A DNA stretch of 51,936 nucleotides from an uncultured Pseudomonadota bacterium. Lineage in GTDB: Bacteria > Pseudomonadota > Gammaproteobacteria > Enterobacterales > Succinivibrionaceae. Of the stretch, positions 36,586 to 39,290 are shown one piece after another (the stretch's first letter is position 1; every line of letters begins with the position of its first letter). The DNA lies in the NCBI GenBank assembly GCA_900315145.1, contig OMYE01000013.1, forward strand, positions 1 to 51,936, in the 5' to 3' direction. The notes under the pieces were generated by a model. The model made no database searches. It was not told the origin of the DNA and saw only the letters and a program-made list of their open reading frames with translations. A program made the translations under genes and the position numbers.

Positions 36586-36614
36586 GAAAAAACCACCATA
36601 ATGGTGGTTTTTTT
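36586..36614 (-). terminator. Terminator after rpoA2
   Basis: ACCACCA/TGGTGGT stem (36591-36598 with 36602-36609) flanked by A and T runs on both sides, 20 bp behind the rpoA2 stop. It separates rpoA2 from the amylase gene. Confidence 0.9.
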
Positions 36615-36633: not shown

Positions 36634-37731
36634 TTACAATCTGTACTTAATCTGCTTTTCGGTATTCTCAATTGGTTCTTCCGGCCAGTTTTCAATACGC
36701 ATACCGAGAGTAAGACCTTCACGAGATAATACATCTTTGATTTCTGATAAAGACTTCTTACCAAGATTTGGAGTTCTTAACAATTCAACTTCAGTGCGCT
36801 GTACTAAATCACCTATAAGCTTAATACCTTCAGCCTTGAGACAATTAGCTGAACGTACAGTAAGTTCAAGTTCTTCAACAGGTTTCAGAAGCTGTGGATT
36901 AATCTTAGGTTCATTATCCTCCTCCACAACAGGTTCAGTAAATGAACTGATGTTGATAAACGCATCAAGCTGTTCGTGGAATATAGTAGCCGCATGCTTC
37001 AAGGCATCCTGAGGAGTGATGGTGCCGTCAGTTTCAAGATTAACAATAAGGCTTTCAAGATTTCTGCCGGAAACATCATCTTCGTACGGAACAACCTTAT
37101 ATGCAACATTCTTAACCGGACTGTATGTAGCATCAACCAGCAAACGTCCTTCTCCATGATCATGATGTTCATCACTATGAACTACAGAACGGAGATCAGC
37201 ACGATCAAAACCTCTACCGCGATCTACAAAAATTTCCATAACAAAAGGAACAGTGCGGGAAGTAATGTGACAGATGACCAATTCAGGGTTAAGAATCTTT
37301 ACACCGGTAGGACAATAAATGTCGCCGGCTGTAATCTGTCCTACATAGTCCATCTTACAATCGTGATTGGTTTCAACTTTACATTCTGGATCATTAACAC
37401 GTAAAGACAATACCGCATCAGACATAGTGGTATTTTCAATCTCAATAGCTACCTTCTTCAAATTAAGAAGAAGAACCAGGATATCTTCCTGCAGACCTTC
37501 CTTAGTAGTATATTCATGATCAACGCCCTTGATTCTAACAGCATTGATAGCACTACCAGGCATGGAGGATAACATAATACGTCTTAAAACATTGCCAAGA
37601 GTCAGGCCGAAATTAGGCTCAAATGGTTCAAGTCTAATGATTGACTGTGTTTGAGAAACTACGTCAATTTTAGCTTCTTGAGGTCTAAAAGTATCAGTAG
37701 AGAAGTTCAAGTTTGATTCCTCATTTGACAT
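36634..37731 (-). CDS. rpoA2: Second RNA polymerase alpha subunit (alpha-2)
   Basis: A 365-residue divergent paralogue of the alpha subunit, intact over both domains. The N-terminal domain keeps [19 protein letters not shown] with Arg51 (E. coli Arg45), [11 protein letters not shown] and [12 protein letters not shown], but the segment equivalent to E. coli 187-201 (EAARVEQRTDLDKL) is replaced by [15 protein letters not shown]. It has an extra Cys/His-bearing insertion (about 113-128, Cys117, His123, Cys125) and a His-rich loop HSDEHHDH (185-192). The C-terminal domain retains the DNA-contact set (R, N, C in [15 protein letters not shown]). The N-terminus lacks the usual GSV-x-x-FLKP start and the C-terminus ends EKQIKYRL. 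No ribosome-binding site precedes the ATG at 37731; a GTG at 37764 is also in frame but would sit in the leader hairpin. Own promoter and terminator. Confidence 0.93.
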
Positions 37732-37744
37732 AATACATAAGTTT

Positions 37745-37764
37745 GCGGTAAAAAAACTTACCAC
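37745..37764 (-). promoter_or_regulatory. Hairpin in the rpoA2 leader
   Basis: GTGGTAA and TTACCGC pair (7 bp, one G-U) around a GTTTTT loop, 13 bases before the rpoA2 ATG, where a ribosome-binding site would normally be. It may control translation of the second alpha subunit. Confidence 0.4.
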
Positions 37765-37787
37765 AAAAAAGAAATAACGATCACATC

Positions 37788-37815
37788 ATTATATATGTTG
37801 CCATATAAAAGTCAA
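37788..37815 (-). promoter_or_regulatory. Promoter of rpoA2
   Basis: On the minus strand TTGACT (37810-37815), a 16-bp spacer and TATAAT (37788-37793) form a near-consensus housekeeping promoter. It starts just after the rplQ terminator, predicting a leader of about 50 bases. Confidence 0.8.
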
Positions 37816-37821
37816 GCTTAA

Positions 37822-37855
37822 GATAAAAAAAAGACCCCGTAAGAACGAGGTCTTT
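37822..37855 (-). terminator. Terminator after rplQ (end of alpha operon)
   Basis: AAAGACC/GGTCTTT stem (37830-37836 with 37849-37855), extended by an inner CG pair set, followed on the minus strand by a run of T. It lies 15 bp behind the rplQ stop. Confidence 0.88.
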
Positions 37856-37870
37856 AGTACCAAATATTAA

Positions 37871-38263
37871 TTAAGCTTCAGCAGTTTCTGCTGCTACTTC
37901 TTCAGCCTTCTGATCAACCAGACTGATGTAAGCCATCTGGCTCATGTCACCTGGACGTAAACCACACTTGAGAATACGAGTGTAGCCACCGTTACGATCA
38001 AGACAACGCTTACCAATATCGTTGAAAAGCTTAGTAACAATATCTCTATCACGGGTACGTGCGAAAACTAAACGACGATTAGCAACACTGTCAACCTTGG
38101 CAATAGTGATAAGACGCTCTGCAACACGACGTAATTCCTTAGCCTTAGGTAAAGTAGTCTTAATAGTTTCTTCTCTAAATAAGGCTACAGCCAAAGAACG
38201 GAATAATGCAGCACGATTGCTGCCATTGCGGTTCAACTGACGACCGCTCATACGATGACGCAT
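37871..38263 (-). CDS. rplQ: 50S ribosomal protein L17
   Basis: Large-subunit protein close to the exit tunnel. It begins [25 protein letters not shown], the canonical L17 start, and the ATG at 38263 has AAGGAAG upstream; the open frame runs further left of that without support. 130 residues, with a short Ala/Glu tail ([10 protein letters not shown]). Last gene of the alpha operon, 43 bp after rpoA. Confidence 0.97.
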
Positions 38264-38306
38264 GATATCTTCCTTATTAAAAAAATTGTTATGACTTAGA
38301 ACAAAC

Positions 38307-39290
38307 TTATAAATCAGCCGGAGGCCAATTTTCAAGACGCATACCAAGAGACAAACCTCTCTGAGCTAAAACGTCCTTGATTTCGGTAAGAGATTTTCTA
38401 CCTAAATTAGAAACTTTTAATAACTCAACTTCGGTACGCTGAACTAAATCACCGATATACTGTATGTTTTCAGCCTTTAAGCAGTTGGCAGAACGCACTG
38501 TTAATTCCAGATCATCGACTGACTTCAAAAGCATCGGATCCGGAGCAGGTACGTGAGTCTGCTCTACCTGGCTTACTGTCTTAACAGCATCTAAATCCAC
38601 AAAAGAATATAGTTGTTCACGAAGGATACTTGCACCTAAATGAATAGCCTGTTCTGGATCTAACACGCCGTTAGTTACAACATCAAGTACCAGTTTATCT
38701 AATTCGGTTCTTTGCTCAAGACGAGCTGATTCAACCTCATAAGACAAATATTTAACTGGACTGAAACTTGCGTCCAACATAATGTTATTGTCTTCATCAA
38801 AAGCAGGTTTTCTTCCTTGCTGACTGGCAGCCAGGAAGCCGACACCCCTTCTAACGCACATTTTAATCTGAACGCTAGATTTAGCATCAACCAGATTGCA
38901 TAACACATGATCAGGGTTAGCTATGATAACTTCATTGCTAACGATATCACCTGCTACAACAGGGCCTGCACCTGATTTGGACAATTCTATATAGACTTCA
39001 TTTACTGCATCATCTAATATATTTACTGCTATTCCCTTGATATTTAATAACAGCTCGAGAACTTCTTCTCGAATATCTGACTTTGCACTATATTCATGCG
39101 CAACACCTTCAATAACTACATCGGTAATTGCACAACCAGGAACAGACATCAATAGACAACGACGCAATGCTTGGCCAAGTGTATTGCCAAAACCACGTTC
39201 CAAAGGTTCTAAAACAACATTTGAGTGATTCTGAGCAACAACATCTATTGCAACCTGTTTTGGTTTTAAAAAGTCTTTTACAGAGCCCAA
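38307..39290 (-). CDS. rpoA: RNA polymerase alpha subunit (alpha-1, operon copy)
   Basis: 327-residue alpha subunit at its conserved place between rpsD and rplQ. The start [11 protein letters not shown] and end [13 protein letters not shown] match E. coli RpoA. It begins with TTG (39290), with GAGGGA upstream, unusual for so central a gene. In the N-terminal domain, Arg44 and the QRTELDKL region (E. coli 194-201) are conserved, but LLSSMPG is LLMSVPG, STKEGVQEDIL is [11 protein letters not shown], and GRLLVDACYSPV is [12 protein letters not shown]. The C-terminal domain keeps [13 protein letters not shown] and NLGRKSLTE, the surfaces for DNA and sigma region 4. It differs clearly from the second alpha gene 0.6 kb downstream, so the two are old paralogues. 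Confidence 0.96.

Follow-up and report, generated by a model that had tools for sequence, protein, structure and literature searches.

Bacteria normally use the alpha subunit of RNA polymerase as two identical copies, and this dimer is treated as near-universal in the bacterial enzyme. In E. coli, footprinting of alpha showed that beta protects residues 30-55 and 65-75 and that beta' protects residues 175-185 and 195-210; the R45A substitution abolishes formation of alpha2-beta, and residues 35, 38 and 39 of one protomer are in contact with residues 46, 50 and 227 of the other (PMC3294249). According to that paper, alpha-1 and alpha-2 of Francisella have been shown biochemically to assemble as a heterodimer, and oriented heterodimers with one R45A protomer have been engineered in E. 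coli. The genomes that it lists as also having two rpoA genes are those of Chloroflexus, Streptomyces avermitilis, Psychromonas ingrahamii and Leptospira borgpetersenii, with no member of the Succinivibrionaceae among them. In archaea (Rpo3/Rpo11) and eukaryotes (Rpb3/Rpb11), two non-identical alpha-like proteins that go back to an ancestral duplication form one scaffold (PMC13374769 and PMC3294249); of the two proteins, one is by far the smaller, and assembly draws on additional subunits (PMC3294249). A search of the open-access literature, judged by title and the start of the abstract among the matches listed, gave no account of the alphas of the Succinivibrionaceae; the original prediction had likewise named only Francisella as a described case. 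By term search, Francisella and Succinivibrio are absent from the main text of a 2026 review of alpha-like subunits (PMC13374769).

In most genera of the Succinivibrionaceae, whose members live in gut and rumen, rpoA is present as two different genes. The pair described here lies in a window of 51,936 nucleotides, by which we mean the whole stretch of DNA analysed (GCA_900315145.1, contig OMYE01000013.1, positions 1-51,936, forward strand); the source is an uncultured Pseudomonadota bacterium, a congener of Ruminobacter amylophilus and, according to NCBI, a member of the Succinivibrionaceae. A minus-strand block of ribosomal protein genes, recognised by eye, runs in the order rpsD, rpoA for alpha-1, rplQ and a second intact rpoA for alpha-2. 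Alpha-1 (38307..39290, minus strand) has 327 residues from a TTG start and sits in the alpha operon; rplQ (L17, 130 residues; 37871..38263, minus strand) separates it from alpha-2 (36634..37731, minus strand), which has 365 residues from the ATG at 37731, or 376 if an upstream in-frame GTG is used (36634-37764). PF01193, PF01000 and PF03118 score above cut-off in both proteins, as do the NCBIfam rpoA equivalogs TIGR02027 and NF003513, and the two proteins of the window are 41% identical over 339 positions. No third alpha was found, the assembly of the window giving two insert-domain matches only. The original prediction, made from the letters of the window, had placed a full-length rpoA in the alpha operon and an intact second copy behind rplQ, and both reading frames are where it put them. 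Its rough alignment to E. coli RpoA also holds: alpha-1 is altered at LLSSMPG and TKEGVQEDIL and keeps the beta' side, and alpha-2 does the opposite. Arg45 is present in both copies of the window, a point that the prediction did not contain.

Two alphas occur in 45 of the 56 Succinivibrionaceae genomes examined, that of the window included. Six genomes have a single alpha, all from two genera (five of g5 and one of g11); one (G529) has one match, located at a contig end, and the four without any match are each 77-89% complete. Within the 12 two-alpha genera both copies are found in 45 of the 46 genomes with any alpha, the exception being the contig-end match. According to its listing, one of the two-alpha genomes (G517) comprises a single 3.5-Mb contig, and for these reasons we discount assembly error and chance: both rpoA genes are real and intact. 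Alpha-2 was also found in the named records of R. amylophilus DSM 1361 and two Ruminobacter MAGs, and the order alpha-1, rplQ, alpha-2 holds in 26/26 of the two-alpha genomes with mapped loci. Outside the family but within its order, 24 genomes were examined and each has one alpha. A search across the class (276 genomes, nine of them with no alpha match) gave more than one match in the genome of the window, in three genomes of family f70 and in G247, which has 4% contamination; across the phylum (199 genomes, two with no match) only the genome of the window and three of genus g317 gave more than one.

The explanation that we favour, with a probability of roughly 0.82 and on the strength of the sequence comparisons below, is that rpoA was duplicated once, around rplQ, on the branch leading to the two-alpha Succinivibrionaceae, and that the two products would now split the jobs done by one alpha in E. 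coli. Alpha-2, encoded behind rplQ, would be the protomer docking on beta and alpha-1, encoded in the operon, the protomer docking on beta', together giving an oriented heterodimer.

The two-alpha genomes fall into two subgroups, with 18 of Succinivibrio type and eight of Ruminobacter type (including the window) among the first 26, and 37 and eight, respectively, among all 45. In the window, the segment of alpha-1 that aligns with E. coli residues 66-79, on the beta side, is altered (39057..39098, minus strand) and that aligned with residues 188-200, on the beta' side, is kept (38694..38732, minus strand); in alpha-2, the alignment shows the 66-79 segment to be kept (37477..37518, minus strand) and the beta'-side motif to be lost (37051..37095, minus strand). 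The 18 Succinivibrio-type alpha-1 proteins have lost Arg44, Arg45 and the HEYSTKEGVQED segment, all of which the 18 alpha-2 proteins keep, with ARVEQRTD lost or deleted. The eight Ruminobacter-type alpha-1 proteins keep Arg45 and lack E72 and G73 in 8/8, and the eight alpha-2 proteins have lost the ARVEQRT segment. To count retention we used seven residues for the beta side (H66, E67, Y68, E72, G73, E76 and D77) and seven for the beta' side (A190, R191, E193, Q194, R195, T196 and D199), both sets being chosen after the first 26 genomes had been inspected. In those 26, alpha-1 retains 1-5 beta-side and all seven beta'-side residues, and alpha-2 retains seven and 0-1. A further 19 genomes (g2 and g8), which are not independent because they are congeners of genomes already sampled, gave 1-3 beta-side residues (19 genomes) and seven beta'-side residues (18 genomes; G531 is cut off) for alpha-1, and 6-7 (19 genomes) and 0-1 (18 genomes; G521 is cut off) for alpha-2; Arg45 is lost from alpha-1 in 19/19. 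Overall, alpha-1 keeps 1-5 of the seven beta-side residues (45/45 genomes) and 7/7 on the beta' side (44/44 measurable), and alpha-2 keeps 6-7 (45/45) and 0-1 (44/44 measurable). Arg45 is lost from alpha-1 in 37/37 Succinivibrio-type genomes, retained there in 8/8 of Ruminobacter type and retained in alpha-2 in 45/45; in these Arg45-keeping alpha-2 proteins the segment next to Lys200, a beta' determinant, is lost in 44/44 measurable genomes. Against a clean division, K86, where an E. coli beta' mutant maps, is retained in both copies. The six single alphas of the family keep 7/7 beta-side and 5-7/7 beta'-side residues. Each copy thus appears to retain one of the two docking faces, alpha-2 that for beta and alpha-1 that for beta'.

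The dimer contact divides in a similar manner. Among the first 18 Succinivibrio-type pairs, alpha-1 has T38 in 18, F35 in 12 (Tyr in six) and L39 in 11 (Ile in seven), with I46 in seven, S50 in one and Q227 in two; Q227 is also retained in alpha-1 of three later genomes (G511, G513 and G514). Alpha-2 of the same pairs has F35 and T38 in none and L39 in six, with I46 in 18, S50 in 17 and Q227 in 18. Since T38 is kept in one copy and I46, S50 and Q227 in the other, one ancestral half-contact is complete in the mixed pair only. In the Ruminobacter type, alpha-1 has lost I46 alone among the six dimer residues (8/8) and keeps T38, S50 and Q227 in 8/8, and alpha-2 differs only at F35 (1/8) and L39 (2/8). 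With an alpha-1 that lacks Arg45 and a half-contact kept in the mixed pair only, the Succinivibrio-type heterodimer is probably obligate. In the subgroup of the window the heterodimer may be the favoured arrangement, less strictly imposed, as alpha-1 keeps Arg45 there and an alpha-1 homodimer could still bind beta; the evidence for this subgroup is weaker than that for the other members of the family.

The division seen in these proteins resembles that in Francisella (PDB entry 6wmp, chains A and B). There too the two rpoA genes are divergent: one product has Arg45 and residues 66-77 but a cut in residues 190-199, and the other lacks Arg45 and 66-77 and keeps ARV..RTDLD. Family f70 is of this type: the copies of G313 match 'alpha 1' and 'alpha 2' of PDB entry 6wmp with scores of 610 and 624 bits (against 247 and 212 bits for the runner-up PDB chains), and the other two f70 genomes align with G313. 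Two changes in the dimer helix of the beta-side copy are shared, G36A (Francisella type 3/3, Succinivibrio-type alpha-2 18/18) and T38I (3/3 and 12/18). The operon copy, however, is the beta-side copy in Francisella and the beta'-side copy in the Succinivibrionaceae, and the second gene lies elsewhere in Francisella but behind rplQ in the Succinivibrionaceae (26 genomes mapped), a difference in location and not in mechanism. Positions 287 and 317 are changed in the Francisella-type CTDs, whereas the Succinivibrionaceae CTDs keep both.

The statistical comparison covers 129 NTD positions, each conserved in 80% or more of a reference set of 29 single alphas; those of G052 and G057, which sit on long branches, were left out of this set, and re-adding them changes little. 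A difference profile was calculated per site as the beta-side copy minus the beta'-side copy and was compared with that of the three Francisella-type genomes. The profiles correlate with r = 0.376, a value reached in 0/20,000 permutations and 0/128 circular shifts, and for the subgroup of the window alone with r = 0.279 (20/20,000 permutations, 0/128 shifts). At conservation cut-offs of 0.7-0.95, r is 0.345-0.433, reached in at most 2/10,000 permutations and in no shift. Of 49 clear sites, Francisella differs in the same direction at 27 and in the opposite direction at five, with 17 tied; in the CTD no correlation was found (r = -0.148). The match with the Francisella profile is the strongest evidence, and an external one, for the suggested division of labour. 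When the published footprint ranges are used instead, separation of the copies is moderate for the family (permutation 26/10,000, shift 17/128; variants of the test gave permutations of 44-309/10,000 and shifts of 16/156 to 21/99); the ranges also separate the copies in the Succinivibrio type (6/10,000 and 7/128), but do not separate them in the subgroup of the window (1113/10,000 and 33/128), and we therefore rejected these ranges as the sole test. Complementarity over the whole NTD was also rejected: across the 129 sites, retention in one copy shows no negative association with retention in the other (Fisher p = 0.51, 0.57 and 0.86), so that the division is limited to segments.

A tree of 83 alphas recovers alpha-1 and alpha-2 as one clade each (100/99), and both subtrees show the same two subgroups. 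Independent duplications in the two subgroups were rejected for that of the window, as forcing its two copies together gave AU p = 0.005; alpha-1 and alpha-2 go back to one duplication. The alpha and RpoB/RpoC trees agree with a lineage-specific duplication inside the Gammaproteobacteria. The single-alpha genera fall outside the paralogues in the alpha tree (91/66), although placing them beside alpha-1 or alpha-2 is not rejected either (AU p = 0.59 and 0.58); in an RpoB+RpoC tree made by a quick method, g5 and g11 are sister to all two-alpha genomes with SH-aLRT 100. The single alphas carry both sides, so copy loss, if there was any, would have predated the division of labour. When the Francisella-type copies are included in a joint tree, their second copy groups with alpha-1 (94/99, not starred), and does so again with the role segments removed; alpha-1 is then no longer one clade, and a single clade for the whole family is not rejected (AU p = 0.42). 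We take this affinity to be long-branch attraction, because the branch is very long (more than three changes per column) and identity shows no such kinship: the CTD of the second copy of G103 is 62% identical to alpha-1, 64% to alpha-2 and 62% to E. coli-like alphas. An origin independent of Francisella is likely, on the basis of taxonomy and of the single alphas in the sampled other families rather than of the alpha tree; a common origin of the two kinds of pair by transfer is less likely.

The original prediction had spoken of two different C-terminal domains per polymerase. This expectation found no support, as the CTDs are the conserved part. Same-genome identity averages 81% in the CTD and 35% in the NTD over 26 genomes (72% and 36% for the pair of the window), and the residues listed for the 265, 261 and 287 determinants are the same in both copies save for Asp/Glu at 258, 259 and 261 and Ile/Leu/Val at 318. 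We thus rejected CTD specialisation as the main effect, the divergence sitting in the NTD. It is accordingly highly improbable that the cell holds two specialised polymerases, with each copy using its CTD to serve promoters or activators of its own, even though there are two genes and, in the genus of the window, separate promoter-like sites. CTD identity between copies is 77-83% by subgroup within a genome and 78-81% across subgroups, and with such similar values gene conversion need not be invoked. Even less credible is a decaying or dispensable alpha-2: the gene has lost its beta'-side segment, but it persists beside alpha-1 in 45/46 genomes of the two-alpha genera with any alpha, with Arg45 and 6-7/7 beta-side residues in 45/45. 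Purifying selection acts on both alpha genes, all finite dN/dS values being at most 0.24, with many dS values saturated. Absence of alpha-2 from close relatives and relaxed selection had been named beforehand as findings that would speak against the pair; 45 of the 56 family genomes carry both copies, and the dN/dS values show no such relaxation.

A mixed population fares better and is still unlikely. Here alpha-1 would still homodimerise, and cells would hold (alpha-1)2 polymerase next to the heterodimer, in a balance that a separate alpha-2 promoter might set. Alpha-1 of Francisella homodimerises weakly (PMC3294249), and in the subgroup of the window alpha-1 keeps Arg45, T38, S50 and Q227 in 8/8; the same eight, however, have all lost E72, G73 and I46, and alpha-1 of the other subgroup lacks Arg45 in 37/37. 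Alpha-2 of the window has candidate expression signals of its own, which are consensus matches and not functional evidence: an intrinsic-terminator-like hairpin with a T tract after rplQ (37830..37855, minus strand), a sigma-70-type promoter-like site, TTGACT-16-TATAAT (11/12; 37788..37815, minus strand), and a terminator-like hairpin after the gene (36587..36613, minus strand). A hairpin followed by a promoter-like site (11-12/12) precedes alpha-2 in the Ruminobacter genus (G000-G003) and in G009, with sites scoring the same as that of the window in G001-G003; the 18 Succinivibrio-type spacers contain no promoter-like site above 8/12 and a terminator-like hairpin in two, again as consensus matches only. 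We continue to prefer the oriented heterodimer. The orientation first predicted, with alpha-2 docked on beta and beta' left to alpha-1, draws support from the complementary segments in 45 genomes and from the Francisella-like partition, and is qualified by the presence of Arg45 in both copies of the subgroup of the window. The physical heterodimer, its orientation and the need for both genes are what we infer from this partition.

Among the beta subunits read, an insertion of about 140 residues co-occurs with two alphas. It matches no Pfam family above cut-off (best E = 0.19), and a comparison of one of its two sequences with the PDB gave no sequence match. The insertion arises in the same stem and may be linked to the alpha pair.

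Compared with Francisella, what is new here is probably an independent origin, together with the opposite gene roles, the location next to rplQ and the unchanged CTDs; the logic is the same. As in the engineered E. coli heterodimers (PMC3294249), loss of Arg45 from one copy would force the orientation in the Succinivibrio type, those being made in the laboratory and the Succinivibrionaceae pair being natural. We would give slightly better than even odds to a wider statement: on at least two occasions the bacterial alpha dimer turned into an obligate heterodimer of fixed orientation, and each time the same residues were lost, namely Arg45 and 66-77 from one copy, 190-199 from the other, and one half of the contact in the dimer helix, while the role taken by the operon copy differed. 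As CTD regulation is unchanged, this would suggest that complementary losses acted as a ratchet, rather than that a new function was gained. Unlike in Rpo3/Rpo11, neither Succinivibrionaceae copy is reduced, both having dimerisation, insert and C-terminal domains, and the resemblance is one of logic and not of kinship.

Most genera of the Succinivibrionaceae thus appear to have left the dimer of identical alphas in the manner of Francisella, with the gene roles reversed. The family would be a second replicate of alpha heteromerisation, one with intermediate stages, Arg45 being kept or lost by subgroup, and its single-alpha sister genera would serve as controls. The route from a homomer to an obligate heteromer becomes testable, as does the question of whether Rpo3/Rpo11 could arise by such a ratchet; if the reading is true, the step leading to Rpo3/Rpo11 is repeated in miniature by the Succinivibrionaceae pair. 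For these rumen commensals it would mean a natural enzyme whose two alpha CTDs can be altered one side at a time.

In an alignment of the RNA polymerase β and β′ sequences (rows L070–L100), every two-alpha Succinivibrionaceae genome for which β was read (24 of 24) carries an insertion of 133–148 residues in rpoB at E. coli β positions 411–414. The same-position insertion is also present in G024 and G033, two genomes in which alpha was not found; it is present in none of the five genomes of the single-alpha genera g5 and g11 and in none of the nine outgroup rows. The lengths of the rpoB open frames across the family follow the same pattern, with 1349–1396 in all five g5/g11 sequences versus 1486–1551 in all 39 other full-length β sequences, a count that leaves out G008 (split) and G030 (partial). 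The insertion matched no Pfam family above the cut-off, and a search of the PDB with one insertion sequence gave no sequence match. The window's own β lies outside this comparison because none of the 246 contigs of its genome, G000, gave an rpoB match, which is probably an assembly gap.

The β′ subunit also carries insertions: one of 26 residues at E. coli β′ position 592 in all of the Succinivibrionaceae sequences aligned, and one of 50–60 residues at position 1072 that is found only in the Ruminobacter-type genomes (six genomes). In G008 (L077) the rpoB gene is broken into two frames and rpoC contains a run of ∼160 X, the latter probably a gap or a masked stretch.

Within the window, a 217 nt direct repeat with 71% identity (36683–36899 and 38323–38539) corresponds to the DNA of the CTD regions of alpha-2 and alpha-1, and is the only direct repeat of at least 25 nt found between 36500 and 39400 (seed 11). 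In the genus Ruminobacter, the spacer between rplQ and alpha-2 contains terminator-like and near-consensus promoter-like sites (37788–37855 in the window); alpha-2 may form a separate transcription unit.

Across the class, the search for the alpha insert domain gave no match in nine genomes (G064, G069, G121, G128, G137, G169, G200, G220 and G261), which have completeness values of 94–100%; gaps or unavailable stretches of sequence are possible causes. Additional alpha genes (L122–L125) occur in three genomes of family f202, two of them in G397 and the others in G404 and G411, with recorded contamination of 3–6% for these genomes. They share 57–61% identity with the operon copies, L124 being cut off, and neither rpsD nor rplQ was found in the stretch around each gene. 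All four retain Arg45 and NARIGQQTDYDKL or DRL, and the HEYS..ED motif is changed in L123–L125 and mostly retained in L122. The additional alphas of f202 could possibly represent a third lineage with a partial division of labour.
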